In this document: positions 17,810 through 33,206 of the stretch, one piece after another | Layout of the letters: every line of letters begins with the position of its first letter | Position numbering within the stretch: the stretch's first letter is position 1 | Source of the DNA: Taibaiella sp. | Lineage (GTDB): Bacteria > Bacteroidota > Bacteroidia > Chitinophagales > Chitinophagaceae | Length of the DNA stretch: 38,885 nucleotides | Direction of reading: 5' to 3' | Assembly (NCBI GenBank): GCA_021740995.1 | Contig: JAIOYR010000033.1 | Span: 1 to 38,885 of the forward strand | Position numbers and translations under genes: made by a program | Notes under the pieces: generated by a model | What the model was told of the DNA's origin: nothing | Databases searched by the model: none | What the model saw: only the letters and a program-made list of their open reading frames with translations

Positions 17810-17900
17810 CATAAGTTCTTTAAAAAGCAGTTTATCACAAGGCAATCGCCCGTTCCCGGGCAACTGCCGACTGTAGACTGAGAACTGCCAACTCAATGCC

Positions 17901-18265: not shown

Positions 18266-19787
18266 CTTTACGGGAAGGAAGGCGAAATAATTCTCGCCTT
18301 CCTTCTTTCTTTTCTCCCAAACCCTTACCTGTATTAGCTATTAGGATAAGAACATTGTCGTCTGTTGCGGTTCGATAGGTGCCATCTTTATAAACTAACT
18401 TTTCAGGGAAGGTCGAACCGAGAAAGTATCTTTTCTTGTCCAAATCCGCTTCAGTAAAGACTTCGTCAATATTATTGAGAAAATGGAAACCAAACTCTAT
18501 CATATCCTTCTCATTGGTGCTATTACTGCTTAGCGTTGAAACCTTTGCCGCTAACCTGTCAATTTCCGGCTCCAGTTTGGACTTAATCTTACGATACTCT
18601 GCTGTATCCAACTGTCCATCAAGCATGAGCGTTTGAGCATTGTCCAGTCGTTTCTGGTAGGTATCCAGTTCCTTCTTCACTTGTTGTAGTTCTGCCGTTT
18701 TATCCTGTCCGTCTTTCTTGTTAGAGTCCTTCATGATAAGCGCATAGGAGGTAAAGACCTTTTTATTGCGACTAACCGATCGTAATAGATCGTAAAACTT
18801 CTCGTTGGCTTCTTCAGCCCTAATACGTTCTTTGCAACTTCCCTTGCAGTGGTAATAGTAGTATCGGGCACTCCTTCCCTTGGATGCACTTCCAGTTAAA
18901 GTCTTGCCACATTTTGAGCAGGTCAAGAACCCTCTTAGTGGCAGTTCTTCCTTTTGACAAAATTGAGAAACAGGCAGGTTCCTTTTTCTACCCTCTAAAA
19001 CATCCTGTACTTCATAAAATAGGGCATCGGCAATAATCGGCTCATGTGTTCCTTTCACGATCATTTCAGGTTCTTGCTTGTAGGCTGGTACGAATATCTT
19101 GCTGATATAAACCAGATTGCGCAATAAACACCAGAAACGGGTACGGCTTAACGGCATTCCCTTTTTGTTTAGGATATGTCGCAGCTCTTCAATGTGATAG
19201 TTGCCGGTTGCCATCATCTCAAATGCCAATTGTACAAATGCCTGTTCTTTTACACTTGGTATAATACATGGCTTATTGGCATCGTTTCGGCCATGTTTGT
19301 AGCCATATGGGGCTGACCCCATGTATCTACCATCTTTCATTGCTTTACGCATACCAGCCGTAATATTGAGTGCCCTGCGGTCATTTTCAACTTCCGGTGC
19401 AGTGAGGTATAATGCAAGCAGGAACTTTTGTTCTGGAATTTCCATGTTGAGCGGCTGCTCAATTCCCTGTGGCTCTATACCCAGTTTATACAACTGGCTA
19501 ATCATGCTGTAAGCTTCCGGCGCATTACGTGAGAACCGGTCCCATTTGAGGAACAAGAGCAATTCTGCTGCACCTTTGTTTTTCCTGAGGAAGGCAAGTA
19601 TTTTATTGAACTCTGGTCTTTCAAACGTTTTAGCGGAAAAGTCCTCTTTATAGAAGCCTGCAATTTCTATGTTGTTGATAGCACAGTACTTGCGCAGCAT
19701 ATCTTCCTGATGTGCAAGGCTATTACCTTTCTCAGCTTGCTCGTCTGTACTCACCCGGACATATAATATTGCTTTCCGTTGTTTCAT
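18021..19787 (-). CDS. Large serine recombinase (integrase) running into ssrA
   Basis: 588 aa as an open frame. The N-terminal resolvase domain has catalytic Ser13 in ILYVRVSTDEQ and the arginine helix LKWDRFSRNAPEAY. The recombinase domain follows (PYGYKHGRND...SVKEQAFVQLAFEMM, about 155-260), then a zinc ribbon CSKCG...YHCKGSC (about 290-320) and a coiled-coil segment (about 350-420). It catalyses integration and excision of the element. Residues from about 491 on are encoded by the antisense strand of the ssrA terminator and ssrA itself (tail starting VEPAGVEPASK), so this tail was gained at integration and the true native C-terminus probably lies near residue 480-490. The frame overlaps the 104-aa gene upstream by 56 bp. 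Confidence 0.92.
   Translation of the reverse strand: MKQRKAILYVRVSTDEQAEKGNSLAHQEDMLRKYCAINNIEIAGFYKEDFSAKTFERPEFNKILAFLRKNKGAAELLLFLKWDRFSRNAPEAYSMISQLYKLGIEPQGIEQPLNMEIPEQKFLLALYLTAPEVENDRRALNITAGMRKAMKDGRYMGSAPYGYKHGRNDANKPCIIPSVKEQAFVQLAFEMMATGNYHIEELRHILNKKGMPLSRTRFWCLLRNLVYISKIFVPAYKQEPEMIVKGTHEPIIADALFYEVQDVLEGRKRNLPVSQFCQKEELPLRGFLTCSKCGKTLTGSASKGRSARYYYYHCKGSCKERIRAEEANEKFYDLLRSVSRNKKVFTSYALIMKDSNKKDGQDKTAELQQVKKELDTYQKRLDNAQTLMLDGQLDTAEYRKIKSKLEPEIDRLAAKVSTLSSNSTNEKDMIEFGFHFLNNIDEVFTEADLDKKRYFLGSTFPEKLVYKDGTYRTATDDNVLILIANTGKGLGEKKEGRRELFRLPSRKVEPAGVEPASKHMPDKLSTCVFLHWFSGAGRGRTNLPPPYLFQFSFCTHSRHRPIPLLFDSAAGTTTGGPPGGYKGCLISD
18274..18315 (+). terminator. Rho-independent terminator of ssrA
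   Basis: GAAGGAAGGCGA (18274-18285) and TCGCCTTCCTTC (18294-18305) form a perfect 12-bp stem with an 8-nt loop, followed by TTTCTTTTCT. It lies 9 bp after the tmRNA end. It is also read, in antisense, as codons of the recombinase frame. Confidence 0.85.
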
Positions 19788-20046
19788 TTGCGTTTGGTTT
19801 TAGTTCAATGATCTTATTGTTGTTTGCTTGCTTCTCCTTTACATGAATGATGACTCTTGTTAGCGCATACAGCCATTCCCTTATTTTGTAAAGCTGTTCG
19901 TCACTGTATTGTACCTGTTCGTCATTCCATATAGCCCTAAGTTTTTCCAGCGGCACTTTGTCAGGAAATATATCATCATGTACAGTTTCCTTTGTCCGTT
20001 CGGCTTTCACTAAAGGGCTGAACTTTGCTTGTCTGTTTTTCTTCAT
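19732..20046 (-). CDS. Accessory protein of the recombinase operon, unknown function
   Basis: 104 aa, basic at the N-terminus (MKKNRQAKFSPLVKAERTKE), then a helical segment LEKLRAIWNDEQVQYSDEQLYKIREWLYALTRVIIHVKEKQ. No family is recognised. It overlaps the recombinase start by 56 bp in another frame, so the two are translationally linked. Small proteins of this kind often precede serine recombinases in Bacteroidota elements; a role as recombination directionality factor or regulator is possible but not shown. Confidence 0.6.
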   Translation of the reverse strand: MKKNRQAKFSPLVKAERTKETVHDDIFPDKVPLEKLRAIWNDEQVQYSDEQLYKIREWLYALTRVIIHVKEKQANNNKIIELKPNANETTESNIICPGEYRRAS

Positions 20047-20048
20047 AC

Positions 20049-20074
20049 CAAAGATATAAAAGGTTGATTATCAA
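20049..20074 (-). promoter_or_regulatory. Promoter box and palindromic operator of the recombinase operon
   Basis: TATCTTTG (20049-20056, minus strand) matches TAnnTTTG; the ATG at 20046 follows after only 2 nt, so the transcript would be leaderless. A perfect palindrome TTGAT-T-ATCAA lies at 20064-20074, inside the promoter spacer. A protein bound there would block transcription. Confidence 0.5.
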
Positions 20075-20133
20075 TGTGCATAGGGTGCTTCCCGCTTTGT
20101 TAATTAAGGAATGTTTAAGACATCATGAGTGAA

Positions 20134-20370
20134 TTATTTATTCCGTAAACCTTTCATCTTACGGAGGGGTTCTTCAATTTCTTGCATTGCTTTATTGTGC
20201 CTTTGGGCAATCACGGATAGCTCCGAACATAACTTAGTCACGCTGCCGAGTACATCGTTTAGAGTGACTTTTTTATGTTCTGCTGCGATCTTCATAAACG
20301 TCAGCAGTTTTTCTTCTGCTTCCTTTCTTGAATTGGCTTCAATCTGTATTGGTAATGTATATAATGGCAT
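20134..20370 (-). CDS. Small protein of the integrated element, unknown function
   Basis: 78 aa from the ATG at 20370 (MPLYTLPIQIEANSRKEAEEK), or 90 aa from 20406. The longer form would overlap the end of the upstream gene by 11 bp. The first part looks like a beta strand plus a helix typical of small DNA- or protein-binding domains; the second is helical (LGSVTKLCSELSVIAQRHNKAMQEIEEPLRKMKGL). No family is recognised. Same strand and direction as the neighbouring element genes. Confidence 0.55.
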   Translation of the reverse strand: MPLYTLPIQIEANSRKEAEEKLLTFMKIAAEHKKVTLNDVLGSVTKLCSELSVIAQRHNKAMQEIEEPLRKMKGLRNK

Positions 20371-20395
20371 AGCTGGTTTTTGTTGAGTGAAAAAT

Positions 20396-21235
20396 TTAAG
20401 CGGCACTTTTTTGCTTTGCTGATTCTGCTAGTATACCAGCTATCTGATCTATCAGGTGATTGTTGTGATACATATACCTTATTATAGTTGATACCTTTTC
20501 AAGGTGAGATTCAGGGAATAGCGGTATTAGTGCATTTTCCAGCCGTGCCACATCTTCTTCACCGATAGTCCCGGAGTAAGTCTGTTGTTTTTTGCTGAAA
20601 GAGACTTTGCTGTCCTGTTTGCCTTCAGCGTCATTTACACTATTTTGCGAAAAACTGTCGGTTTTCCCATCACTACCCAGAAAATCGCCAATCAAAGGCA
20701 ACCCACTCAATACATTTGGATTCTTTGAAAGGTAAACGCCAGCAAGGCCAATAACAGCATCCGTTATTTTGCTCGATGACTTTTGTTTCTCCGATTCAAG
20801 TATGGATATCGTGTTCTGAAGCACGTCGGAATACTTTTCTAGTTCTTCCACTTCCTCCTTTAAGCTCTCGTTTTCCTTCTTTAGTTGGTCGTGATCCCAT
20901 TGCTCCTTTGCTTGTGACAGTCTATCGTCAATAGTCTTCTCGATACCAGCCAAGGCTTGTTGGTGCGTTGATTCTTGTTCCTTTAAAAACAACACATAAC
21001 GGATACATCTCCTTGAATTACCTACAAACAAGCGGATAGTAACATTTTTTGTATCGTCCTGGATAAAGTCTTCGTGATCGAAGAATCGCTCTGGATCACG
21101 GTTTCGTGAAATGACAATCAACTCATCAATACTTACGTCATAGTCCTTTGCGTTGCCAGCTTCTTTTTCATTGAGCAGCATTTGGTAAATAAGATTTACC
21201 CGTTTTTCCGTGTACTTTTCTCTTACAATACTCAT
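20396..21235 (-). CDS. Coiled-coil protein of the integrated element, unknown function
   Basis: 279 aa. N-terminal part (1 to about 85) mixed alpha/beta. Residues about 90-160 form a long coiled coil (DQLKKENESLKEEVEELEKYSDVLQN). A short hydrophobic stretch with Gly/Pro follows (ITDAVIGLAGVYLSKNPNVLSGLPLIGDFLG, about 165-195), which may be membrane-associated, and the C-terminus is helical (EEDVARLENALIPLFPESHLEKVSTIIRYMYHN). No family recognised. It lies 30 bp after the HTH gene in the same direction. Possible roles in element maintenance or mobilisation are guesses. Confidence 0.6.
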   Translation of the reverse strand: MSIVREKYTEKRVNLIYQMLLNEKEAGNAKDYDVSIDELIVISRNRDPERFFDHEDFIQDDTKNVTIRLFVGNSRRCIRYVLFLKEQESTHQQALAGIEKTIDDRLSQAKEQWDHDQLKKENESLKEEVEELEKYSDVLQNTISILESEKQKSSSKITDAVIGLAGVYLSKNPNVLSGLPLIGDFLGSDGKTDSFSQNSVNDAEGKQDSKVSFSKKQQTYSGTIGEEDVARLENALIPLFPESHLEKVSTIIRYMYHNNHLIDQIAGILAESAKQKSAA

Positions 21236-21265
21236 CGGCTTGTTTTTTAGTGTTACTAATGAATT

Positions 21266-21538
21266 CTATTTGGTTTCTGATAAATACTCGTTTAGCTGAT
21301 CTAGGGTAAACAGGAGCCGTGCGTACTTCTTTTTTTGCAAGGGCTTTAATTTGCCTTCATTTATCAGGCAGTAAATTCGGGATAATGATAAATGGAGATA
21401 ATCCGCAGCTTCCTTTGCGCTTAGCGGCTTGTTATCAGTTTTGACGATATCTCTTTCTACAGATAAATGAGAGCGGCTGTCTAGCTTCTCATTTATGAGA
21501 GCCAATTGCCGAAGGATTTTGTTTAGCTTTTCGATCAT
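21266..21538 (-). CDS. Excisionase-like helix-turn-helix protein
   Basis: 90 aa. After a helical N-terminus (IEKLNKILRQLALINEKLDS), the winged HTH of the excisionase/MerR-like HTH_17 type spans about 37-85: PLSAKEAADYLHLSLSRIYCLINEGKLKPLQKKKYARLLFTLDQLNEYLSE. Such proteins bind att sites to steer the recombinase to excision, or control element genes. It is the first gene of the element operon and is preceded by two repeat arrays that are its likely binding sites. Confidence 0.8.
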   Translation of the reverse strand: MIEKLNKILRQLALINEKLDSRSHLSVERDIVKTDNKPLSAKEAADYLHLSLSRIYCLINEGKLKPLQKKKYARLLFTLDQLNEYLSETK

Positions 21539-21555
21539 GTTTTTCTAATTTTACA

Positions 21556-21563
21556 CAAAGCTA
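21556..21563 (-). promoter_or_regulatory. -7 promoter box of the HTH gene
   Basis: TAGCTTTG on the minus strand matches TAnnTTTG; the ATG at 21538 follows after 17 nt. The CCCGAT repeats begin 22 bp upstream of this box. Confidence 0.45.
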
Positions 21564-21585
21564 AAACGAGGTAAAAAACTACTTT

Positions 21586-21611
21586 CCCGATCTTCCCCGA
21601 TTTTACCCGAT
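21586..21611. repeat. Three CCCGAT direct repeats at exact 10-bp pitch
   Basis: CCCGAT starts at 21586, 21596 and 21606. The 10-bp units differ only in their last bases. One-turn spacing places all copies on the same face of the helix, as for cooperative binding of a small protein. They lie just upstream of the HTH gene promoter. Confidence 0.75.
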
Positions 21612-21638
21612 TTTGAAGAAGATTAAACAAGATTGATA

Positions 21639-21728
21639 CTTTTTAAACGTTTGTGCCACTTTTTGTCATTTTCTAAACGTTTCTAAACATTGTTAGCACT
21701 TTTTAAACGTTTCTCGACATTGTCAGCA
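21639..21728. repeat. Three 30-bp iterons each with the palindrome AAACGTTT
   Basis: AAACGTTT starts at 21645, 21675 and 21705, an exact 30-bp pitch. The second and third units also share ACATTG-T/C-AGC near their ends. The 30-bp units span 21639-21668, 21669-21698 and 21699-21728. They lie upstream of the excisionase-like gene and could be its operators, recombinase accessory sites or a replication/transfer origin. Confidence 0.75.
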
Positions 21729-22140
21729 AGTTTAGCAACAGGAAAATTGTTTCAATAGCTTTTAGAGGGGAGCCACAAGACTGATTTTATGTATCAAAAC
21801 CGAACAGTAACGATCAGGTAACGGACTATTCTCACTAAACTGTAGCATACTACAAATAGCGACAAACAGGTAACAGGCTAAAAACGGGTTGGATTTTCCG
21901 TAAGAATGCACGATTGAGCCGCCGTTTTCTTGGTTTACAGACTAGGTGCAAAAATCATTGACAAGAAAGTGAGCACAGATATGCAAATTCTACATCGAGT
22001 TCAGGAAACGCTATTTAAGAGATGGAAATTATCTGGTTGGAATAAACATCATTATGACGAGGGTCATAATACAGTTGTGTTAGGCATGGAAGTAGTAGCA
22101 AAACACATAACGAATGGCTATCCAGTATGTGACAGGGCAG
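21729..22140. other. Spacer between the element operon and norD
   Basis: About 410 bp with no recognised gene. It contains GTAAC-type short repeats (CAGGTAAC near 21814 and 21867). The only ORF of note is on the plus strand: ATG at 21981, 56 codons to 22151, overlapping the end of norD by 11 bp (a TTG at 21930 is in frame). It shows no family features and is probably not a gene. A right-hand attachment site may lie here but none could be identified by eye. Confidence 0.35.
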
Positions 22141-23901
22141 TCAGTATTTAATCCGCTCGTACAATTTTACTATCGACTGCAGTAATTCCGTAGGCGAGGT
22201 CAATATCTGGTAATGATTAACCCCAAACATTTGTGGCAGGTAGTATTTCGCCTGTGCTTCTATTGCTAAAGCATATGAATTGATTTTGCGCTCGTTCATT
22301 TCACGTAATGCCTGCTTTACATCGTTAATGCCATACCTGCCTTCGTATTTATCATAATCATTTGGCTTGCCGTCTGAAATTAAAATGACCCACTTTTTCT
22401 TAGAGCTGCGATTGTTAAGCAAGGCTCCTGAATGCCTTAGCGCTGCGCCTATCCTTGTATATCCCTGTGGTTCTACGGCGCCTATCTTATACTTTGCAGT
22501 ACTCCATTTCTCGTCAAAGCCTTTTATAGACAGGTAAGTAGAATAATTCCGTGTTTTTGAATAAAAACCCTTTATTGCAAAATCAACGTTATACTCATTT
22601 AATATTTCCCCGAAGAGTATAGACACTTGTTTTTCAACATCAATGACCCGGTTCCCGTTTGCGTAGCCGTCGCTGGACAAGCTAATATCCAATAGCAGCA
22701 AGATAGACAGGTCTTTTTCTTTTTTTCGATTGGAAAAATATATCTTATCGGATGGGGTATGCCCTGTATGCACATCGGCATACAGATCGGTGATGGCATC
22801 AATGTCAAATTCATCGCCCTGCGTTTGCCTACGCTGCTGTTGCCATTTATTGTTGACACTTGCTAACGCTTTGCGCAATGTGGTGAGGACAGTTGCATAC
22901 TTGGTTACAGTTTCCCGGTAATACACCATATCGTGCTGCATTGAATGTACGGTATATACTTTGCAATATTTTTCTTTGTATGCCCGCTTTGAATAATCCC
23001 ATTCAGGGTATTCCAGGTAAGGCCCTTTAGTATCAGTCTCTGCGCTTTCTGAAATGGATGTATTCTCCGTAAAGTCTGCCTGGTAAATAGAGTGTACGGG
23101 ATCGTCAACCCGTACAGTGTACTTCATATTCAGCTCGTCAAGGGCATTACTATGGTCTTCAAGTTCATCTTCTCCATCAAAATCGCGCCATACTCCACTG
23201 AATTCATCGGCAGTTTCTACCTTCTCAAAATTGTGGGTAAGTACATAGTCTTCCTGTTGCTTCTTGTCCACTTCTAAACTTCTGACTTCTTCTACCGCAT
23301 TTGCATTCAGTATAGTTGACGGTGTTGCTTCAAGTGCCGTCCTGGTTTTGTCTGAAATATTATTTAACCTTTTGTCAGATGGTGCGTTACTTTCATTGTG
23401 CATCCATTTGCCATACAGCCATGAATAATCAGGATTAGTACCCCCCCGGGTAGTTTCTGATAAATACGTTTCGAAGGTATTGTGCAGTTCGCGTATGACA
23501 GGGTAATGGCGGAATAGTTCATGCAGCACATTGGGGGCTGTTTCCGCAGCTTTTAGTTGCGATAGCTCCTGGCCTTGCTGCTCACTGTTGTTCCAGTTGA
23601 AGTTCAGTTCTTTCTGAACAGAAAGGTAGAACACCCTATACAGGTAGAAGGAATAATTAGCTTCAGCTGATGGAAATAAGAAGAAGGAGGCCGGCAGAAA
23701 GAAATTATCGTCCTTATACCCTCCTTCCCTTTCTGCTGGGTATATTTCAATTTTATTGCCTGATAAGGCTGTTGATACAATTGCCAATTTCGATTTTATA
23801 TCGTTTAAGTGAACGGTACGCTGTGCCATCTCGGTAGAAGTCCTTTTGTTCTTCTTGAAATAGTTGGCCACCCTGCTGAATAAATATTCGTCTAATGCCA
23901 T
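22141..23901 (-). CDS. norD: NorD, von Willebrand A-domain NO reductase activation protein
   Basis: 586 aa. The C-terminal third is a VWA domain with the MIDAS motif LLLLDISLSSDG and the second motif ISDGKPNDYD; the N-terminal part is variable and partly acidic. NorD works with the AAA+ ATPase NorQ to assemble or activate the NorBC nitric oxide reductase, probably by inserting the non-haem iron. Its ATG overlaps the norQ stop by 1 bp (TAATG), which is typical of norQD pairs. It is the last gene of the denitrification run on the minus strand. Confidence 0.88.
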   Translation of the reverse strand: MALDEYLFSRVANYFKKNKRTSTEMAQRTVHLNDIKSKLAIVSTALSGNKIEIYPAEREGGYKDDNFFLPASFFLFPSAEANYSFYLYRVFYLSVQKELNFNWNNSEQQGQELSQLKAAETAPNVLHELFRHYPVIRELHNTFETYLSETTRGGTNPDYSWLYGKWMHNESNAPSDKRLNNISDKTRTALEATPSTILNANAVEEVRSLEVDKKQQEDYVLTHNFEKVETADEFSGVWRDFDGEDELEDHSNALDELNMKYTVRVDDPVHSIYQADFTENTSISESAETDTKGPYLEYPEWDYSKRAYKEKYCKVYTVHSMQHDMVYYRETVTKYATVLTTLRKALASVNNKWQQQRRQTQGDEFDIDAITDLYADVHTGHTPSDKIYFSNRKKEKDLSILLLLDISLSSDGYANGNRVIDVEKQVSILFGEILNEYNVDFAIKGFYSKTRNYSTYLSIKGFDEKWSTAKYKIGAVEPQGYTRIGAALRHSGALLNNRSSKKKWVILISDGKPNDYDKYEGRYGINDVKQALREMNERKINSYALAIEAQAKYYLPQMFGVNHYQILTSPTELLQSIVKLYERIKY

Positions 23902-24680
23902 TATATCATAAGGTTACACAGGTCGGTAAGGGCTGCGATAGTTTCGGTTTCATCAGTGAGAGGTTCCACTACCGCTACTTTGACAGCAAGACGTCTTGCA
24001 AGCCCGCTGCGTATCAGCTTCGCTGCGTCAACTAATAATCGTGTGGATGCCGTTTCGGTTAATCCAAGTTCAGTCAGGTTTCTTATCTTATTTCCTATAC
24101 GCACCAACTTTTGTGCATCGGCAACGTCTATACCGGTTTCTTTTACCAGTATCTCTGTTTCAATATCCTGCTCCGGGTAACGAAAAGAAATTGCCACAAA
24201 ACGTTGCCGCGTAGAAGGTTTCAACTCTTTAAACCCTTTTTGATATCCGGGGTTAAATGATGCCACCAACATAAAATTATCATGGGCCTTTATGCGCTCC
24301 CCTAATTTGTCAACATATAGTTCACGCCTGTGATCGGTGAGTGAGTGAATAGCAACAATCACATCAGGGCGAGCCTCTGCTATCTCGTCCAGGTAAACTA
24401 TAGCCCCTCCTTTGACACCCATGGTCAGCGGTCCGTCTTGCCATACTGTTTCTGCCCCTTTGATAATAAAACGTCCGATAAGGTCGGTGGATGAAGTCTC
24501 CTCGTGACAGCTAATCGTGATCAAATCCCTTTCTAGTTTATGTGCCATAAACTCAACAAACCTTGATTTACCTGTCCCCGTAGGTCCCTTCAACAGGAAG
24601 GGCAGGTCATTACCACAGGCGTGTTCAAAAACTTCAATTTCCTTACCTGTGGCATGATAATATGGTGATGCTATCTTCAT
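23901..24680 (-). CDS. norQ: NorQ/CbbQ-type AAA+ ATPase
   Basis: 259 aa, the usual NorQ length. Walker A is GPTGTGKSRF (about 33-42), Walker B IVYLDEIAEARPDV, sensor-like SFNPGYQKGFKELKPSTRQRFVAI. Belongs to the MoxR branch of AAA+ proteins, which remodel a metalloenzyme together with a VWA protein; here norD overlaps it by 1 bp. 54 bp separate it from norB. Confidence 0.9.
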   Translation of the reverse strand: MKIASPYYHATGKEIEVFEHACGNDLPFLLKGPTGTGKSRFVEFMAHKLERDLITISCHEETSSTDLIGRFIIKGAETVWQDGPLTMGVKGGAIVYLDEIAEARPDVIVAIHSLTDHRRELYVDKLGERIKAHDNFMLVASFNPGYQKGFKELKPSTRQRFVAISFRYPEQDIETEILVKETGIDVADAQKLVRIGNKIRNLTELGLTETASTRLLVDAAKLIRSGLARRLAVKVAVVEPLTDETETIAALTDLCNLMI

Positions 24681-24734
24681 TTTATTTTGTTTTCCGGGTC
24701 AATCCAAGTACCTTATCTGCGCAAATGACATGTG

Positions 24735-26066
24735 CTATTTTATTAGTGCTTCATCTGATGGGCGGCCATGTTTGAAGAATTCATAAATAAACATTCCAAT
24801 GCCCGTGGTAAACATGGTAGCGCAACAGATAAGAATGAAAAAGTGAACCTGTATTTCCTTTTGAACATCGCCGAATTCCAAACCCACTTTCCTTTCTAAA
24901 TAGACTTGCGCCACTCCGGCAACACCAAAGGCAACAGTCATCCCTAACATACCGATATTGGACAACCAGAATGCCAATAATCCCACAGTAGTGTCGTAGT
25001 ATTTCCTTCCTGTCAGGTTAGGTAGCGTATAGCTGATTATTGCCAACACTATCATTGCATATGCCCCCCAAAATGCAAGGTGTCCATGCATGGCAGTTAC
25101 CAGTGTGCCATGGGTGTACATGTTCACCTGCGGAATGGTATGGGCCAGCCCTAATAATCCCGCGCCCACAAACGATACTATTGCTGTGCCTAATGTCCAG
25201 CTAAGTGCAATTTTATTAGGATGTTTCTTTTCCCCTTTCCGGTACATGGCAATAGCAAACAGCGCCATTCCGAGAAACGCCAGCGGCTCTAAAGCTGAAA
25301 ATATACCACCAACTATCAACCATACTTTACCAACACCAATGTAATAGTAGTGGTGCCCTGTTCCTAGAATCCCTGATATAAATGTCAGCCCCACAATCAC
25401 ATACAGCCACTTCTCTATCACTTCCCTATCTACACCGGTGATCTTTATCAGCAGGAAGGCGAGTATTCCACCCATTATCAGTTCCCAAACACCCTCAACC
25501 CATAAGTGTACCACCCACCAGCGAAAGAACGAATCCATGGTTTGGTTATCAAACCAGATCATTCCGGGAAGGTAAAGCAGGGCGGCAAATACCAAACCCA
25601 TAGTAAGCACTAGTGAGGTTGTTGTTCGTTTCTTCCCCTTAAATAACGTAGTGACGATTATGCCCAGAAAAGTAAGCACATTAACCACAACAAGGTAATC
25701 CAACGGCCTTGGTATTTCCAGGAATTTCCTGCCTTCCCAATAATTGAAGTGATAGCCCACAATAGCAATAACGCCAACAATCGCGAGCGATATCAATTGT
25801 GCATAGGCCAGCTTCACGCTTACCAGTTCATTCTCCGATTCTTCAGGGATGATATAATATGCTGCTCCCATGAAACCCGACAACAGCCAAACCACTAGCA
25901 GGTTTGTATGCACAGCCCGTGCGGTATTGAACGGGATTACGCTATGCAAGTTGTCGAATCCCATATGGGCAAACCCCATGATGAAACCATAAATAATTTG
26001 CAGGGACAACAATAGCATTGATAGAGCAAAGAACCAATACGCTACTTTCTGTGATTTATATTTCAT
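24735..26066 (-). CDS. norB: Nitric oxide reductase large subunit, cytochrome c type (cNorB)
   Basis: 443 aa with about 12 membrane helices and no N-terminal quinol-oxidising extension, so this is a cNOR rather than qNOR. Haem/FeB ligand motifs are visible: VVHLWVEGVWELIMG (His and Glu of the active site), LGTGHHYYYIG (His pair) and THGTLVTAMHGHLAFWGAY (haem His). It reduces two NO to N2O at the haem b3-FeB centre in the inner membrane. 23 bp after norC, same operon. Confidence 0.95.
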   Translation of the reverse strand: MKYKSQKVAYWFFALSMLLLSLQIIYGFIMGFAHMGFDNLHSVIPFNTARAVHTNLLVVWLLSGFMGAAYYIIPEESENELVSVKLAYAQLISLAIVGVIAIVGYHFNYWEGRKFLEIPRPLDYLVVVNVLTFLGIIVTTLFKGKKRTTTSLVLTMGLVFAALLYLPGMIWFDNQTMDSFFRWWVVHLWVEGVWELIMGGILAFLLIKITGVDREVIEKWLYVIVGLTFISGILGTGHHYYYIGVGKVWLIVGGIFSALEPLAFLGMALFAIAMYRKGEKKHPNKIALSWTLGTAIVSFVGAGLLGLAHTIPQVNMYTHGTLVTAMHGHLAFWGAYAMIVLAIISYTLPNLTGRKYYDTTVGLLAFWLSNIGMLGMTVAFGVAGVAQVYLERKVGLEFGDVQKEIQVHFFILICCATMFTTGIGMFIYEFFKHGRPSDEALIK

Positions 26067-26089
26067 AGATTATGTTTTTGAATCGTGAA

Positions 26090-26515
26090 TTATTTTTTTA
26101 AGTCTGGCTTTGGTGGAAACCCATTCAGGTCTGTTTCTCCTATCCACTTTAAGAAAGCAACTACATCATTAGCATCTTCTTCCTTAAAGCCATAGGCTAC
26201 CATTTTTCTTCCCCGCGGCGACCATGGGGTTTTCGACATCAATGCTGCCTTGATGTACCCCTCTCCACGCCTTTCATACACTTTCGTTAATTCCGGGGCA
26301 TAATACGCCCCCTCTCCCAAGATGGTATGGCACCCCATGCAGTTGTTGGCCTCCCATATTTGTTTACCCCTCACAACTTGCGGTGTAAGGTTTTCTTCGT
26401 GTGTTCGCTTAGGCACCTCATTGCTCAATGAAGTCCAGGATAGTATGAGAAAGACTGCAAACGTTACAATCGTACCTCCCAGAAAAAACAATTTCGCCTG
26501 TGATTTTGACAACAT
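26090..26515 (-). CDS. norC: Nitric oxide reductase cytochrome c subunit NorC
   Basis: 141 aa. One N-terminal membrane anchor (KLFFLGGTIVTFAVFLILSW) and a periplasmic cytochrome c domain with CMGCH and the following TILGEGAYYAPELTKVYERRG typical of NorC. A Met (SKTPWSPRGRKMVAYGF) is available as the distal ligand. It delivers electrons to NorB. Confidence 0.95.
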   Translation of the reverse strand: MLSKSQAKLFFLGGTIVTFAVFLILSWTSLSNEVPKRTHEENLTPQVVRGKQIWEANNCMGCHTILGEGAYYAPELTKVYERRGEGYIKAALMSKTPWSPRGRKMVAYGFKEEDANDVVAFLKWIGETDLNGFPPKPDLKK

Positions 26516-26583
26516 ACTTTTTTGTTTTTGAGTGTAATGAAATATTATTCTGTTATGCGCTATTGCTGGAAATAGAACTCCGC

Positions 26584-27231
26584 CTATTGTTGCAACGATT
26601 TTATTGCTGCTATTGTTTCTGTTTGCGCGCCTCCCAGCCCGTCTTTTTTGTACGTTATTACTCCATTGGTGTTTAACACGAATATGGTGTTTGAATGATC
26701 AAACCCGCCACCCGATAATTTTTTTATACGAACACCTAATACATTCGCTATTTCCGTTGTTGCATCTTCGTCTGAACAGACGAGTGTCCAATTGTCATTT
26801 AACTGGTGCTCTCTTTGGAAAGTGCTTAGCCTACCGGGCGTATCCCGTTCAGGGTCCATGGTTACTAACAAAAACTGCACCTGTTTCATTTCCTCGGCAT
26901 TTAAGCCGGATTCAATATTTTTCAGGTCAGCCATTATCCTTGGGCAGGCCGACTGACATGAAGTAAATATCATTGCCGTTATGGTAGTCTTTCCTTTAAG
27001 ACCATTAAACGCAAATGTTTGCTTCTTCTGGGTTTGCCATTGGCTGGATATATTGAAGAGTGACTCATCCGAAATTGTTTCCATAGCCCCGGCACCTGTT
27101 TCCTTACTGCAACACTCCTTTTTCTGATTTGTTTCTGATTTTACCTGTTCGGTTTTTGCCCCATTACTGCAGGACAGCATGGAAACACCAACAACAAGCA
27201 AAGCAATCTGGTTATTTTTCATTTTGTTCAT
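26584..27231 (-). CDS. SCO1/SenC family copper chaperone, lipoprotein
   Basis: 215 aa from the ATG at 27231, whose ATGA overlaps the nirV stop; the frame extends upstream but this start gives the coupled arrangement. A lipobox-like SMLSC lies at the end of the signal peptide. The thioredoxin-like domain has the copper ligands: CxxxC in TSCQSACPRIM and His in GGFDHSNTIFVL. SCO proteins load copper into cupredoxin-type sites or reduce their cysteines. Between nirV and norC, it most likely serves the copper sites of NirK. Classical SCO acts on cytochrome oxidase, but no oxidase gene is in the window. Confidence 0.88.
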   Translation of the reverse strand: MNKMKNNQIALLVVGVSMLSCSNGAKTEQVKSETNQKKECCSKETGAGAMETISDESLFNISSQWQTQKKQTFAFNGLKGKTTITAMIFTSCQSACPRIMADLKNIESGLNAEEMKQVQFLLVTMDPERDTPGRLSTFQREHQLNDNWTLVCSDEDATTEIANVLGVRIKKLSGGGFDHSNTIFVLNTNGVITYKKDGLGGAQTETIAAIKSLQQ

Positions 27232-27992
27232 TTTACACATCTGAACCCAATATTGGGCACACAATAATTTGCCTTTACACTTGACCGCATCGCAAACCGC
27301 ATAAAGGACGCATAGTTGTTAATGTCTTTGGAATCAAAGGAGCCTCCACCGCAAAAGAACGTATTGTCAAGGCTGCTGTTCCCTCTCGATTCCCCAGTTG
27401 TTAATGCACTATTGAAATCGTACGTCCATTCCCACACTAACCCATGCATGTCATACACACCATAGTAGTTCTTAAAGGTTGTACCAACATTTGGCAACAC
27501 TTTAGCGGTTGGTTTGGACACCCAATTCAAAACCCACTGGTTGAATTCCTTGTCCTTACTCGCGTCAGCACTTTTTTCGTTCGACCTGGCTACCAATTCC
27601 CATTCAGCTACTTTTGGTAACCGTTTCCCGTTACATTCGCAATATTTTTTTGCGGCGAACCAGGAGACGTTTACGACAGGGCTGTTCATTATATTGTTGT
27701 TGAACGAGGAATCTGTAATCCAGTGGTTCAAATAAGAACTATCCGCAAACAGGGATTTTACTTTGCGCCTACTCCATTCCGGGTATTTTGACAGAAACAG
27801 CAGGTAGTCTGCATTTGTGACGGGGTATATATCCATGTTAAATGCCCTTAAGGTTATTCTTTGCGTATCAGCTGAATATAGAGGTAAATAGCTCCCCCCT
27901 TTTATCATGGCCATTCCTTTCCCGGCTACCGCCGGTTGGGCAGACATTGAAAAAACACAGAGCACCATCAATATTGTTAGTTTACTTTTCAC
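27228..27992 (-). CDS. nirV: NirV-like protein of the formylglycine-generating-enzyme (SUMF) fold
   Basis: 254 aa from the GTG at 27992, directly after the nirK stop; a TTG at 28016 would overlap nirK by 23 bp and is less likely. Signal peptide TILMVLCVFSMSAQPAVAG. The SUMF fold is shown by MAMIKGGSYLPLYS, MDIYPVTNADYLLFL, PVVNVSWFAAKKYCEC-NGKRLPKVAEWE, GLVWEWTYD, CGGGSFDSKD and NIGFRCVK. The two cysteines of true FGE enzymes are not present at the equivalent place after GGSF, so it should not make formylglycine by the known route. NirV genes follow nirK in several denitrifiers; the function is not settled. Confidence 0.75.
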   Translation of the reverse strand: MKSKLTILMVLCVFSMSAQPAVAGKGMAMIKGGSYLPLYSADTQRITLRAFNMDIYPVTNADYLLFLSKYPEWSRRKVKSLFADSSYLNHWITDSSFNNNIMNSPVVNVSWFAAKKYCECNGKRLPKVAEWELVARSNEKSADASKDKEFNQWVLNWVSKPTAKVLPNVGTTFKNYYGVYDMHGLVWEWTYDFNSALTTGESRGNSSLDNTFFCGGGSFDSKDINNYASFMRFAMRSSVKANYCVPNIGFRCVK

Positions 27993-27993
27993 C

Positions 27994-29439
27994 TTATTTT
28001 CTTCTTTGTTTTGCAACGTCTGCTGCTGTCACTTCTCCACCTTTATTCCCGAAATTATTGAGCACATAAGTTATAACTGACGCAATTTGCCCGTCACTCA
28101 TGGTTTGTTTGGGCATAATGCCGTCAAAGGTTTTTCCGTTAACGGTAATCTTTCCTGAAACCCCGTGCAATACCGCCCTGATTGCCTTATTGGGTTCAGT
28201 AGCAAAATAGTCAGAACGGGCTAAAGGAGGGAATGAACCGTCTATACCATTTGCATCGGCCTGGTGGCAAGCCTGACAGATACTTGTGTACAACGCTTTT
28301 CCTTGTGCTATTTTTTCTTCTTTTGTCAATGGCTTTTCAACTGCTACAGGAACATCGGGCATTGTCTGGGATGCGCCGCCTTCAGCCTGGTATATTCTGT
28401 CGTCTTGCTGGCCGGAGAAAATGGTTTTGTTTTCTGCACCTTCTACTTTCAGCATACCTAGCGACCCCTTGTTGAAAGTTCTGAAAATAGAATGGTCAAC
28501 CAGTATCAGTGTTGCAGGAACGTCGCATTTGAATTCGGTTATAGCAGAGCCTCCAGCAGGAACCAATGTGGTTTGTATGTCATGATTTGCAACACAGCCC
28601 CCTTCCTGGTATACATTGTCAAAAATTTCACCGATAACATGAAAACTGGACACAAGGTTTGGCCCACCATTTCCTACAAATAGCCTTACCGTCTCACCTA
28701 CTTTTGCTTTAAGTGCATTGTCTCCTGTAAGAGCACCTACCTTGCCGTTAAACACCACATAGTCCGGCTGTTCTTTCAATGCCTTGTCCATGTTGAATTG
28801 TTGTAAGCCGGATTCTCCATATGCGCCCTTTGTGTAAAAATCTCCCTGGCATACGTAATACTCTTTATCCACTTTTTTCAATCCTTCTTTCGGTTCTACA
28901 AGTATCAGCCCATACATTCCATTACCAATATGCATACCTACCGGAGCCGTAGCGCAGTGGTATATGTACAGTCCATGATTCAACGCCGTGAATGTGAATT
29001 GTGTTTCATGTCCCGGTGCCGTGAACGTTGCTGCGGCACCGCCACCTTGCCCTGAAACTGCGTGCAGGTCAATGTTGTGCGGCAACTTGTTATTGGGGTT
29101 GTTCTTCAGATGAAATTCAACTACATCCCCCTGCCGCACACGGATAAATTTCCCCGGAACACTGCCACCAAAAGTCCAGAAGTTGTATTTTACGCCATCC
29201 ATCATCTCCATCTCCTTTTCTATTACTTCCAGTGTTACTATCATCTTTGTAGGGTGATTCCGTGTGATAGGTGGTGGCACATTGGGTGCGTCTGTCAGTA
29301 CCGCAACCTCTTCGCCACTTAGTATCTCTGAATATTCTTTAGTAGTGTTCTCTTCCCTAGAATTGTTGCAGCCGAAAGCCAGGGTGCAAAACGCTAATAC
29401 TGTAATGGAGGTTTTGAAAATTGATTGTTTCATATACAT
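27994..29439 (-). CDS. nirK: Copper nitrite reductase NirK with fused C-terminal cytochrome c, lipoprotein
   Basis: 481 aa. Lipoprotein signal [12 protein letters not shown]. Two cupredoxin domains: His121, His126 (LPHNIDLHA, with catalytic Asp124), His161-Cys162 ([16 protein letters not shown]), His170 and Met175 supply type 1 and type 2 copper ligands; the second domain has [11 protein letters not shown] and LVDHSIF for the last type 2 His and the catalytic His. A cytochrome c domain follows with CQACH and MPKQTMSDG. It reduces nitrite to NO. The fused cytochrome gives direct electron delivery. First or second gene in the minus operon, 6 bp after the porin. Confidence 0.95.
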
Positions 29440-29445
29440 TGGATT

Positions 29446-30750
29446 TTATTTAGTGAACTCTTGAATAAATATTGTTGGAGAAACTTTCAGCATCACATAT
29501 GCCGATCCGTTGTAGTTGGTTGCATCGCCCCCCTTTATCAACTCCATATTTTTTGTTGCGAACATCATACAGTACCCAGCCTGCAAGCTGATGATGGGTG
29601 TCGGCTTGTAATCAAACAGCAGGTCCAATTCCTGTCCCAGGTCCTGCGAAATTTTCTTTGTTGCAGTATTGTTGGGGTTAGCTAATGAAAAAGAATGCAC
29701 ATCTAATGTGAAGGCGAATTCTTTTTTAGGGGATATACCAAAACGTGCATACATATCCATTAACCCTCGCTGTTTTGTGTCGCCGGGAAACGTGAGGAAA
29801 TAGTCCATATACCCGTAGAATTTATGGTTAGTAGCATATAGCGTAGAAAAATTGTTGCTTTCTGTCGTGAGTGTGTTATCAGAGTTTCCTGATATCAAGT
29901 CAGTTCCCACACCCCCAAACAGTTTGCTTTTCCTGTATTCTACATAGCCGTTCACCATGTATGCACTTATGGATAGGTTGTTGTCCGTTTTGCCCGTCTG
30001 GTAATATGCGCCGGCGATTGCCTTCCACCCCTTGTTTGAAAAATTGAATACAGGACCAATCGTATAACTTGTATTTGCTGCCTTTTGAAAAGTGTCGGTT
30101 GGTGTCATCCCATTCATTACTGCCATAGCGCCCAGTGTGCTGTGTATTTTGGTAAAATCTTTCTTCATCCAGGTAAATCCGAGGTGTTTGTAATTTTTGA
30201 GATTGTATTTTGCTCCAAAAAGAGGCTCTCCAACCTGGTTATATGCCCCACCGATGTGCCAATTGAAGTCTTTTTTCTTGTTAGTGTATTTGACAAGCAG
30301 GGCATCATGTGAAATGGTGAGGTTTGCCCAATCGAGATTTCCTAAAATCCGGTGGTCGTCATATGCCAATTCTTGCCTTCCCATTTTGATAGAGAACCCC
30401 TGAGGTAGCGCAAGCTCAAGCCATGCCTCGTTGAACTGCAGCCCCCCGATGTCTTTTCTTTGTTCTTCATCTCCCCATGTCCGGGAATCCTGCAACGATG
30501 TGTAAAAGGCAATCTTGTTTTTCTTGTAATCGACTATGAGCCGTGCTCTCTGTCCTATAAAAGACTCTCCGCCTGTTGTATCAAAAGCGAGTGTTCTGTA
30601 CCCATTCCTGTATTCGGGCCGAATCCTGTATTGTCCGGAGATTTTAATGTATTCACTTGGAACCTCATTTTCGGGTTTCTGTGCCAGCAGCGCTTGATAG
30701 CAGAATAAAAATATGGCGGTTAATAACTGTATTTTTTTAAGCTTTTGCAT
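29446..30750 (-). CDS. Outer-membrane porin, alginate-export-like
   Basis: 434 aa from the ATG at 30750 (MQKLKKIQLLTAIFLFCYQALLAQ gives the signal peptide). The rest is a 16-18-strand beta-barrel of the Alginate_exp type (SGQYRIRPEYRNGYRT, FIGQRARLIVDYKKNKIAFYTSLQDSRTWGDE, WANLTISHDALLVKYT). Family members are outer-membrane channels; several Bacteroidota copies sit next to denitrification genes, where nitrite or other anion entry is a possible role. It is the first gene of the minus operon, 6 bp before nirK, so it should be expressed with it. Confidence 0.78.
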   Translation of the reverse strand: MQKLKKIQLLTAIFLFCYQALLAQKPENEVPSEYIKISGQYRIRPEYRNGYRTLAFDTTGGESFIGQRARLIVDYKKNKIAFYTSLQDSRTWGDEEQRKDIGGLQFNEAWLELALPQGFSIKMGRQELAYDDHRILGNLDWANLTISHDALLVKYTNKKKDFNWHIGGAYNQVGEPLFGAKYNLKNYKHLGFTWMKKDFTKIHSTLGAMAVMNGMTPTDTFQKAANTSYTIGPVFNFSNKGWKAIAGAYYQTGKTDNNLSISAYMVNGYVEYRKSKLFGGVGTDLISGNSDNTLTTESNNFSTLYATNHKFYGYMDYFLTFPGDTKQRGLMDMYARFGISPKKEFAFTLDVHSFSLANPNNTATKKISQDLGQELDLLFDYKPTPIISLQAGYCMMFATKNMELIKGGDATNYNGSAYVMLKVSPTIFIQEFTK

Positions 30751-30768
30751 ATCAAGTGTATTTGATAA

Positions 30769-30776
30769 CAAAACTA
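30769..30776 (-). promoter_or_regulatory. -7 promoter box of the porin-nirK operon
   Basis: TAGTTTTG on the minus strand matches TAnnTTTG. The ATG at 30750 lies 18 nt downstream. A weak FNR-like dyad (TTACTnnnnGTCAT, 30799-30812) is centred 29.5 bp upstream, the same spacing seen at the regulator and hemN promoters. Confidence 0.55.
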
Positions 30777-30841
30777 CCCCCCTCTTAATCTGAATAAAAT
30801 GACCTTCAGTAACTATAATTGTGTTTGTTAAAACAATAAAC

Positions 30842-30857
30842 TGTGATGTAAATCACA
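30842..30857. promoter_or_regulatory. Perfect CRP/FNR-type dyad in the divergent promoter region
   Basis: TGTGAT-GTAA-ATCACA is a perfect inverted repeat with a 4-nt centre, the half-site layout of CRP/FNR/NNR proteins. It lies between the divergent porin-nirK and regulator genes. Confidence 0.65.
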
Positions 30858-30947
30858 TTCACCGTGATTGGTTTCAGGGTGGTAATTTCATAGGCAAATG
30901 GGTATTCATTGCAAAAATCACCCGGCATATTTACACATACAGGCTTT

Positions 30948-30963
30948 TGTGATTCCAATCATA
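30948..30963 (+). promoter_or_regulatory. CRP/FNR-type site upstream of the regulator gene
   Basis: TGTGAT-TCCA-ATCATA, one mismatch from a perfect dyad. Its centre is 29.5 bp upstream of TATCTTAG (30985-30992), a 7-of-8-like match to the -7 consensus, which suits activation or autoregulation by the regulator encoded 48 bp downstream. Confidence 0.5.
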
Positions 30964-31010
30964 TTGACATTGTTTTTTGAATACTATCTTAGGGTCAAAT
31001 CGCATTTGAA

Positions 31011-31727
31011 ATGACTAACTCAACCGTTCGGAATTGTACTACCTGCAATTTGTGTTTTGCAAGAAACGATTCTGTCTTTAGTGTCCTTACTGCTGAACAG
31101 TTAGCTGAATTGGAGGATGTTAAAAGTTACATTTCATATGGCGACGGTGAATTAATATTTAAAGAAAGGCAACGCCCTTTCGGTATTTACATTGTTCAGG
31201 ATGGTAAGGTAAAGATTTCCAAATATGGTTTCGAAGGCAGGGAATACATTGTGCGCTTTGCAAAAAAAGGGAACATTATTGGTTATAGGTCTTTTTTTAA
31301 TGGCGAACCTTATTCATGTTCAGCCACTGCAATTTCCAAAACGCTGGTTTGTTTTATTCCCGGGGATGTGATTCTTGATTTAATAAGGAGAAATTCAGAA
31401 TTGGCGCTTCAGTTTATGAAGTATTTGGCTCAGGATCTCAAATATGCTGAAAAGAAATCCATAAGCATCGCCCAAAAACCCGTAAGAGAACGAGTTGCCG
31501 AATCAATAATAATTCTAAAAGACATTTATGGATTTGAACAAAATAATACAATAGTTGATGTGAGCCTAAAAAGGGATGAAATTGCAAGTATAGCCGGCAC
31601 ATCCAGAGAAACAGTAACCCGGCTGCTGTCTGAATTTAACGAAGAAGAAATTCTTCTTCTTGAAGGAAGAAAAATAAGAATCCTCGATCTGCCCAGACTT
31701 CAGGCTATTGCAAATAAGTCATTTTAA
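31011..31727 (+). CDS. FNR-type Crp/Fnr regulator with N-terminal Cys cluster
   Basis: 238 aa. N-terminal CTTCNLC (Cys9, Cys12, Cys15) plus Cys103 and Cys114 in the effector domain suggest an oxygen-labile Fe-S cluster, although the spacing (CxxCxxC) differs from E. coli FNR. The cyclic-nucleotide-like fold follows (LIFKERQRPFGIYIVQDGKVKISKYG, GNIIGYRSFF), a dimer helix, then HTH DEIASIAGTSRETVTRLLSEF whose SRETVTR resembles the FNR recognition helix. It probably senses low oxygen (or NO) and switches on the neighbouring denitrification genes. Divergent from the porin-nirK operon and 111 bp upstream of hemN. Confidence 0.85.
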   Translation: MTNSTVRNCTTCNLCFARNDSVFSVLTAEQLAELEDVKSYISYGDGELIFKERQRPFGIYIVQDGKVKISKYGFEGREYIVRFAKKGNIIGYRSFFNGEPYSCSATAISKTLVCFIPGDVILDLIRRNSELALQFMKYLAQDLKYAEKKSISIAQKPVRERVAESIIILKDIYGFEQNNTIVDVSLKRDEIASIAGTSRETVTRLLSEFNEEEILLLEGRKIRILDLPRLQAIANKSF

Positions 31728-31781
31728 GGGCTGTAATGCTTTGGTCTGAATTGTCACCCAGTAATCATATTGTGTAGTCGG

Positions 31782-31825
31782 TTGATTTTGGTCATAAATT
31801 CCCTCATCTGCGGGACATACATTTA
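31782..31825 (+). promoter_or_regulatory. FNR-like site and -7 box of hemN
   Basis: TTGAT-TTTG-GTCAT (31782-31795; first half perfect FNR, second half 3 of 5) is centred 29.5 bp upstream of TACATTTA (31818-31825), one base from the -7 consensus. The hemN ATG is at 31839. Confidence 0.45.
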
Positions 31826-31838
31826 GAAAAAATCAAAC

Positions 31839-33206
31839 ATGCAAACAGAAGAGTATTCGCTTAATAAGTACAACATCCCTGTTCCAAGGTACACAAGTTA
31901 CCCTACTGTACCATACTGGAACGAGGGTATAGATACCGCGGAATGGATGAGTTTGTTTTGCACAGACTTTAGCAGGTGTAATAATGACAAGGGGATTAGC
32001 TTGTATATACATCTGCCTTTTTGCGAGTCTTTGTGCACCTATTGCGGTTGCAATAAAAAGATTACTAACAATCATACCGTAGAAGACGCATACATAAACG
32101 CAATTCTCCGAGAATGGGAGTTATATAGGGCCGCAATGGACAGTCTGCCTGTTTTGAGGGAGTTGCACCTTGGCGGCGGCACCCCAACATTTTTTTCCCC
32201 TGATAATCTTAGGCGTTTGCTCTTACCAATTCTTGATAGTGCTAAAATACATGAGGAGTATGAGTTCAGTTTCGAAGGCCACCCAAACAACACTACCGGC
32301 GTACATTTGCAGACTTTATATGACCTCGGTTTTAGGAGGGTTAGTTATGGTGTACAAGATAATGACCCAAGGGTACAGAGAATAATAAACAGGATGCAGC
32401 CATTTGAAAATGTAATGCTCGCCACTGAAAGGGCAAGGGAAGTCGGGTATAAATCTGTCAACTTTGATCTTATATACGGATTGCCGCTACAGACACAGGG
32501 CAGTATGCGTCGGACAATCGAAGAAACCATAGAGCTACGGCCCGACAGGATTGCTTTTTATAGCTATGCGCATGTGCCGTGGACAAGTAAAGGCCAGCGT
32601 TTGTTTGATGAAAGAGACCTGCCTACAGCAAGCGAAAAGCTAGAATTGTACCTCTTAGGCAAGCAGCTGTTATTGAATGCAGGCTACCATGATATAGGTA
32701 TGGACCATTTTGCATTGGAACATGATGATCTTTACATTGCCCAGCAAGAAGGCCGCTTACATCGCAGCTTCATGGGATATACTACTCAAAACACCGAAAT
32801 AATGATAGGGTTGGGTGTTTCAGCAATCAGTACCATACGTAGGGCATATATGCAGAACGACAAAAGCCTTCGCAATTATTATGATGCGGTAAACCAAAAG
32901 AATGTGCCCGCTAATAAAGGGATATTTCTTTCGGAGGAGGACATTCGCTTCGGTGTCTATATCAGGGATATCAGTTGCAAAGGCCGTACAACATTCTCCG
33001 CAATGGATATGCAGGCCATTAATAAATACTGTTTACCCGAAATAAAAGAACTTGAGACAGACGGGCTAGTGGAGATCAAGGGAAATACAGTAATTGTTTC
33101 AGCCATTGGACACAACTTTATCAGGAATGTTTGCAGCGCATTTGATTTATACTTGCTAAGAAGTGGTGATGCTAATAAAAGAACTTTGTTCAGTAAGGCA
33201 GTTTAG
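31839..33206 (+). CDS. hemN: Oxygen-independent coproporphyrinogen III oxidase HemN
   Basis: 455 aa, the length of true HemN. The radical-SAM motif is CESLCTYCGC (Cys62, Cys66, Cys69, Cys71), the HemN hallmark CxxxCxxCxC; PRYTSYPTVPYW precedes it and LHLGGGTPTFF, FEGHPNNTT, VSYGVQDNDPRVQ and NFDLIYGLPLQT follow. It makes protoporphyrinogen without oxygen, supplying haem for the cytochromes NorC, NirK and NorB under anoxia. Linkage to an FNR-type regulator and denitrification genes is common. Confidence 0.95.
   Translation: MQTEEYSLNKYNIPVPRYTSYPTVPYWNEGIDTAEWMSLFCTDFSRCNNDKGISLYIHLPFCESLCTYCGCNKKITNNHTVEDAYINAILREWELYRAAMDSLPVLRELHLGGGTPTFFSPDNLRRLLLPILDSAKIHEEYEFSFEGHPNNTTGVHLQTLYDLGFRRVSYGVQDNDPRVQRIINRMQPFENVMLATERAREVGYKSVNFDLIYGLPLQTQGSMRRTIEETIELRPDRIAFYSYAHVPWTSKGQRLFDERDLPTASEKLELYLLGKQLLLNAGYHDIGMDHFALEHDDLYIAQQEGRLHRSFMGYTTQNTEIMIGLGVSAISTIRRAYMQNDKSLRNYYDAVNQKNVPANKGIFLSEEDIRFGVYIRDISCKGRTTFSAMDMQAINKYCLPEIKELETDGLVEIKGNTVIVSAIGHNFIRNVCSAFDLYLLRSGDANKRTLFSKAV

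Follow-up and report, generated by a model that had tools for sequence, protein, structure and literature searches.

The window analysed here, 38,885 bases of Taibaiella sp. DNA, is the entire contig C114 of a genome (G000) assembled to 3.9 Mb in 151 contigs, with a contamination value of 4.6%. Within it lies ssrA, the tmRNA gene and an integration target (17901-18268, plus strand; Rfam RF00023, 140.8 bits, versus no tmRNA reported in the window by ARAGORN), followed by a large serine integrase gene with four small companions and then by a nirK-nor denitrification cluster with a regulator gene and hemN. An earlier note, made from the sequence alone, had described this order and proposed that a serine-recombinase element at ssrA carries the denitrification genes as a portable respiration module. 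Profile matches (Rfam, Pfam and NCBIfam) confirm the parts of this layout, and no core gene was recognised from ssrA to NorD, in agreement with the note. The anatomy was thus correctly read; what has to be corrected is the idea of one continuous stretch, since comparison with a related genome separates the element from the denitrification genes.

The integrase gene occupies 18300-19787 on the minus strand, with its frame open to 18021, in antisense ssrA. Its product has the ordered resolvase, recombinase and zinc-ribbon domains of large serine integrases (PF00239 at residues 6-155, PF07508 at 180-267 and PF13408 at 283-335), matches the phrog_95 integrase family at E 3.6e-76, is 98% identical at the amino acid level to the copy in the related genome G010, and shows a YVRVS motif with Ser13, which we take to be the catalytic motif. 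The four companions are also on the minus strand. The first (19732-20046) overlaps the integrase gene and is conserved with it, a relative adjoining the integrase in 9/9 loci of each of two locus sets. It is followed by a 90-amino-acid protein (20134-20406) with relatives in five element loci and no family match in Pfam or PHROG, and by a 279-amino-acid, coiled-coil-like protein (20396-21235) that also has relatives in element loci and whose only Pfam match is a sub-threshold one to a leucine zipper. The last is an HTH_17 protein (21266-21538; PF12728), which may be the element's excisionase, as its weak matches to the excisionase families phrog_2907 and phrog_4691 (E about 5e-5) suggest.

The denitrification block begins beyond a 117-bp gap (21875-21991). 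On the minus strand it encodes a NorD-like VWA protein (22141-23901; PF05762), the AAA ATPase NorQ (23901-24680; PF07728 and the CbbQ/NirQ/NorQ C-terminal domain PF08406), the cytochrome c-dependent NO reductase NorB (24735-26066; PF00115, and E 1.7e-111 to the cytochrome c-dependent NO reductase chain 3o0r_B), the cytochrome c NorC (26090-26515; PF00034), a SCO1/SenC copper chaperone-like protein (26584-27264; PF02630), an FGE-sulfatase-domain protein (27228-28016; PF03781), NirK with a C-terminal cytochrome c domain (27994-29439; TIGR02376 at 372.9 bits against the NCBIfam cut-off of 296.3, and PF00034), and an Alginate_exp-type, porin-like outer-membrane protein (29446-30771; PF13372). A CRP/FNR-family regulator (31011-31727; PF00027 and PF13545) and HemN (31839-33206; TIGR00538, 427.9 bits) follow on the plus strand. 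The presence of nirK, a cytochrome c-dependent NO reductase and NorQD, recognised by TIGR02376, 3o0r and PF08406, marks this as a denitrification cluster. NirK with its tethered cytochrome c would reduce nitrite to NO, and NorCB, assembled with NorQD, would reduce NO to N2O under a CRP/FNR-type regulator; we infer this nitrite-to-N2O activity from sequence. A search for FNR boxes gave 4 matches versus 6.2 expected by chance, which lends no support to such sites. The structures 3ziy and 2zoo, heme-c-tethered copper nitrite reductases, align with NirK across both domains, the copper nitrite reductase core and the C-terminal cytochrome c; this likeness is one of sequence comparison only, and the window protein differs in being a Bacteroidota member encoded in a NirK-FGE-SCO1 cluster. 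Of the 33 loci with a NirK of 60% identity or more, 30 contain an FGE-domain relative. G000 has two copies of hemN, that of the window and a 69% identical one on contig C115; no other of the 35 genus genomes has two hemN matches at the threshold used, and of 78 other nirK loci 4 contain a hemN relative.

The evidence that separates the two units comes from G010, a metagenome bin of the same genus that holds both of them in different places. Window positions 17899-21874 match G010:C29:85149-89119, at the ssrA gene of that genome, with 95% identity, and the nir-nor block (21992-31726) matches G010:C8:14384-24117 with 96.6%. The DNA common to the two genomes therefore breaks at 21874 and resumes at 21992 on another G010 contig, so that the one continuous island of the earlier note is not supported. 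On C8 a proline dehydrogenase gene lies less than 200 bp from the block's regulator, and no tRNA or tmRNA gene was seen around the block in a 40-kb region scanned in part. Immediately beyond the right-hand side of the G010 element stand 134 bp that repeat the integrase C-terminus (G010:C29:89277-89410), perhaps the scar of an earlier tandem insertion.

The two genomes are otherwise distant. Flanking genes share at most 76% DNA identity, and corrected divergence at four-fold sites reaches 1.57-1.59 in three genes left of ssrA and 1.11 in proline dehydrogenase. The corresponding values are 0.03-0.12 for the element genes, 0 for NorB and NorC, 0.01-0.07 for SCO1, FGE, NorQ, NorD and the porin, 0.26 for NirK and 0.30 for the regulator, and a run of 1465 bases (24687-26151) is identical in both genomes. 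Since synonymous sites of the core genes are near saturation and those of both units are not, both units must have moved recently between these species; the pattern indicates that the block was exchanged as a mosaic and that element and block are not in step. To this extent the denitrification genes are indeed portable, having been acquired or exchanged horizontally. The block genes of G021, a further member of the genus, have diverged like the rest of its genes (NorB 1.82 and NirK 2.10 at four-fold sites), and its copy has therefore not been exchanged recently with G000.

The most likely reading of the locus, to which we assign a probability of roughly 0.7, is an accretion zone downstream of ssrA in which at least two independently acquired units, the serine element and the nirK-nor block, lie side by side. 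The block would have been exchanged recently between species of the genus, and not as cargo of the window's serine integrase. This supports the earlier interpretation in part: both units are imports in a hotspot, and the claim that the serine element carries the denitrification genes is at odds with their separate locations in G010 and with the lack of an attR motif to the right of the block. Nor was cargo between attL and attR of a single element, as in vcr-GI-type islands, found in the window.

Surveys of nirK loci point in the same direction. Of 394 family genomes sampled and scored at strict thresholds, 12 had NirK and 9 had the integrase; G000 alone had both (G010 was not among the matches in this sample). 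NirK occurs in 4 of the 35 genus genomes, and only one of 78 nirK loci from the named genomes, the G010 C8 locus, matches the integrase at E 1e-5. The order NorD-Q-B-C-SCO1-FGE-NirK-porin recurs, whole or largely, in G151, G163, G239, G291 and G364 and is rearranged in G449; the integrase is absent from the fetched stretches of all six loci. In G010, G163, G239, G291 and G449 the block has parts of the proline-dehydrogenase gene cluster next to it. It should be noted that, of the 33 loci with a NirK at 60% identity or above, 17 span 18 kb or more, and that many of the others are too short to reveal a neighbour.

Several observations weigh against keeping the two units apart. Three of the four nirK genomes in the genus (G000, G010 and G034) also hold a close integrase relative; those of G010 and G034 are located elsewhere than the nirK block. 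The G010 C8 locus has a 58% identical integrase relative that starts a prophage-like element 7.3 kb beyond the block, and the nirK contig of G021 has a 25% identical relative behind ssrA, at a distance of 9.4 kb from the block. In G021 and G034, 4.4 and 9.4 kb separate the block from the gene that begins the ssrA neighbourhood; the block lies upstream of this neighbourhood, with side and orientation opposite to those in the window. Some integrase relatives belong to elements of at least 20 kb, one group of them prophage-like, and cargo-bearing members of the family thus exist. The right end of the element at 21874 depends on a single pair of genomes and could be a deletion point, and the family's attR motif is absent there and elsewhere in the window to the right of ssrA. 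Finally, the AT-rich orphan gene beyond hemN (33358-35067, minus strand; no Pfam, PHROG or PADLOC match) has one relative in the 35 genus genomes, 69% identical, and it lies 1.6 kb downstream of ssrA (G011:C155). The earlier note had suspected that this gene might belong to the element, and it does look ssrA-associated.

The last point also bears on a different history, in which an older tyrosine-integrase island at ssrA carried the block, together with hemN and the orphan gene, and the serine element was inserted later between ssrA and the old island. The gap may hold a scrap of such an integrase: 15 plus-strand codons (21948-21992) resembling the C-terminus of a tyrosine integrase, whose best DNA matches reach E 1.1e-4 in G006 and 0.005 in G024, one genome each. 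This fragment abuts the block on the same strand as the G024 relative, a PF00589 integrase directly behind ssrA, and about 14 different sequences follow ..CCAC of ssrA in 25 genus loci (counted by eye), as in a busy hotspot. The shortness and weak statistics of the fragment speak against this history, as do the position of the G010 block away from ssrA, the two G011 open reading frames between ssrA and the orphan gene, which are unlike an integrase (no family scan was made), and the absence of any exact 10-mer repeat of the ssrA 3' end from 18400-38885, the last position being the contig end. That the block came with an older island at ssrA may be so, and we consider it rather unlikely.

We regard as improbable a single serine-integrase island at ssrA with the nirK-nor-regulator-hemN set as its cargo, from which G010 later lost or moved the block. 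The element and the block are directly adjacent, both were acquired recently, other family members reach at least 20 kb, and the vcrABC island of Dehalococcoides offers, in the part of that report drawn on here, a published serine-recombinase respiration island at ssrA (PMC3146451). Such an island is hard to reconcile with the separate locations in G010, with the absence of this adjacency elsewhere, with the lack of a right attachment motif in the window and with the different divergence of element and block. An assembly chimera at the junction, 21874-21992, is more doubtful still. The sides of the junction lie on different G010 contigs, and the assembly has the contig number and contamination value given above; against a false join, the junction DNA has no repeat beyond 16 bases in its own assembly, and the orphan gene on its far side is ssrA-linked in G011 as well. 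The orphan gene, the tyrosine-integrase fragment and the block positions in G021 and G034 together argue for a true accretion zone and for a contig that is probably joined correctly.

The boundaries of the serine element can be proposed from its relatives. In those inserted at tRNA-Arg and tRNA-Ala genes, the common element DNA begins at or directly after ..CCAC, and by this comparison the start of the window's element is placed at 18267. The preceding 18244-18266 (plus strand), from the T-arm to the A73-C74 end of ssrA, with a 23-nt spacing as in the relatives, would be the target-derived half of attL. The left end (18267-18310, plus strand) contains a terminator-like hairpin, which would take the place of the terminator native to the target gene; closely similar DNA stands behind tRNA-Arg, tRNA-Ala and tmRNA genes in different genomes. 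At the other side, the final bases common to the window and G010 copies (21861-21874, plus strand) form the proposed right end, defined by a break in one genome pair. We do not call position 21874 a proven att site because a similar break in G365, G405 and G417 turned out to be merely the start of variable cargo; the 5.3-kb backbone common to these three was accordingly rejected as a set of whole elements. Like the earlier note, we recognised no right attachment site, either by motif scan or by searching for direct repeats of the ssrA end (no exact 11-mer up to about 30 kb). That note had also named an att site between 21.5 and 22.1 kb, excluding the denitrification genes, as one of the observations that would refute its island: the break at 21874 falls inside this interval and the block is off ssrA in G010, but an att site is not proven there.

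Taken together, the element would be small, extending from 18267 to about 21874, and inserted at the tmRNA 3' end. Its integrase would recognise the T-arm and acceptor end of tRNA-like genes and cross over at or near A73-C74, a point that we infer from the relatives, and insertion would leave the RNA gene intact and supply it with a new terminator. If the right end is indeed at 21874, the circular joint of the 3.6-kb element would read ..GTAAC then TTTACGGG.

The behaviour of the wider integrase family agrees with this proposal. At 63 of 85 loci the integrase match ends about 30-130 bp from a complete, convergent tRNA or tmRNA gene; these are 16/21 closer loci (at least 57% identity) and 47/64 distant genus loci (24-68%, some of them partial). 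Across independent loci, then, the integrase gene stands directly at the 3' end of an RNA gene in convergent orientation, and the window's recombinase belongs to a family found at tmRNA and tRNA 3' ends. The genus yielded 79 integrase matches, 76 of which were examined (12 closer and 64 distant); two cut at the needed end (G023:C635 and G001:C331) and one fragment (G010:C29:89275) were left out, as was G439 from the matches in 10 genomes of other genera. Among the distant loci, the first batch gave an RNA gene in 24/32 (Rfam agrees for 23) and the second in 22/31, with G021:C53, at ssrA, in addition; L268 and L270, with tRNA genes 421 and 462 bp away, were counted as misses. Stated for the 3' flanks of the distant homologues by themselves (L195-L226 and L249-L279), a serine recombinase stands beside a tRNA 3' end in 46 of 63. 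The five closer loci without a complete RNA gene comprise three with a partial 3' fragment (G017, G028 and G010:C8), one with a T-arm-like sequence in its place (G378:C3) and one that starts at a contig end (G402:C15). With about 45 tRNA genes per ~4 Mb, the probability of such proximity by chance is estimated at well under 1%.

Elements at different RNA genes share DNA from ..CCAC onwards, including the terminator-like hairpin, and the distance between the T-loop motif GGTTCRA and the crossover is 23 nt in RNA genes and 28 nt at the right ends found. This right-end signature, GGTTCRA ending 28 nt on in YAC, was detected at seven sites in six elements among 24 sequence sets scanned (G343, G365, G405, G417 twice, G000:C83 and G007:C28), often followed by a terminator-like hairpin; the reversed-strand control gave two sites in 794 kb. 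Not counted among the seven are site 1215 of G029:C31 and 11 overlaps with left ends, at which AC again closes the first five bases of the element. With a spacing of 29, one set gave seven sites; the ones listed fell within elements and were discarded. Nine of the elements were added by contig extent, and several sets meet a contig or fetch end before a possible right end. In G343, DNA syntenic with G249 starts no more than about 120 bp after the right end; the tRNA-Val site of G249, expected to be empty, held other DNA. A 5-bp shift between putative attB and attP is suggested by these six relatives, the window's own element having no recognised attR.

On balance we favour the view that, in Bacteroidota of the Chitinophagaceae type, tRNA and tmRNA genes serve as attB for an entire branch of large serine integrases, with the zinc ribbon reading the T-loop sequence GGTTCRA 5 bp nearer to the crossover in the RNA gene than in attP. 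The branch would serve many tRNAs (Arg, Ala, Leu, Val, Gln, Met, Lys, Ser, Pro, Glu, Asn, Asp and Phe) as well as ssrA and would carry prophage, defence or other cargo, with the window's element as a minimal 3.6-kb member.

This habit was unexpected, because no serine integrase is known to use a tRNA gene as its target, according to the part of the Islander paper of 2014 used here (PMC4383910). As described in that part, Islander-type islands resemble the present element in targeting the 3' end of RNA genes, keeping the gene whole and accreting in tandem, and differ in that the window's recombinase belongs to the serine family. For tmRNA there is a precedent in the ssrA islands of Dehalococcoides, which, according to the sections drawn on, include vcrABC islands and have the serine recombinases DsiA and DsiB (PMC3146451). 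The two systems share a target at the ssrA 3' end, a left-edge recombinase on the reverse strand whose frame runs into antisense ssrA, tandem islands behind ssrA and respiratory genes nearby. The Dehalococcoides islands carry a 20-bp ssrA direct repeat at their right ends and are inserted in the T-loop (PMC3146451, same sections), whereas in the window no such repeat was found, A73-C74 is the proposed crossover point and the respiratory genes are not established as cargo. For large serine integrases such as those of the Listeria A118 type, the account consulted in part (PMC3783163) places the zinc-ribbon motif 5 bp nearer to the crossover in attB than in attP. The window's family has the same three domains and apparently the same shift, 23 versus 28 nt in the relatives whose right ends were found; the distance from motif to crossover, about 16-22, overlaps only partly with the 11-19 of that model, and with the T-loop of tRNA or tmRNA as the motif, many RNA genes could be attB. 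None of the titles listed by searches of open-access PMC text describes Bacteroidota serine integrases at tRNA genes; the TIGER island resource, to which PMC12884075 refers, may already contain cases.

Other features of these elements and of the contig deserve mention. The window's own genome has another family element, at tRNA-Gln on C83 (L240 and L241), with both end motifs and an extent of about 25.8 kb, and directly behind the common backbone of the G365 element lies a PtuA/PtuB (Septu) defence pair (L096, 10634-12642). A group II intron matches the contig of the G028 element (L050, 1697-1772) and a group I intron (L196, 618-861) lies beside a G027 integrase without a recognised tRNA. A yifB-like gene split near residue 283 in G008, G010, G012, G033 and others suggests another integration site. 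To the right of the orphan gene, the window encodes on the minus strand a PLP-dependent decarboxylase whose frame is broken in two (35530-36785; PF00282 in both pieces, one just below the cut-off), its counterpart in G002 being a single frame of 412 amino acids, and an accessory proline dehydrogenase (36837-38003; PF01619) that adjoins the nir-nor block in G010 too. The comparison of base composition over 18.3-35.5 kb with the flanks, which the earlier note had proposed, delimits no single island by GC content (left flank 44.8%, element 40.3%, nir-nor block 42.5%, hemN 42.7%, orphan gene 35.1%, right end 44.5%).

The nirK-nor block offers a clear example of nitrite-to-N2O genes exchanged very recently between related Bacteroidota species, and it bears on how partial denitrification spreads. 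The tRNA-targeting habit of the serine integrase branch is the more surprising of the two results: if true, it would overturn the published statement on serine integrases and tRNA genes, as worded in the part of that paper cited here (PMC4383910). It also suggests a simple recognition rule for these integrases, with a possible use in the insertion of DNA at conserved tRNA sites.

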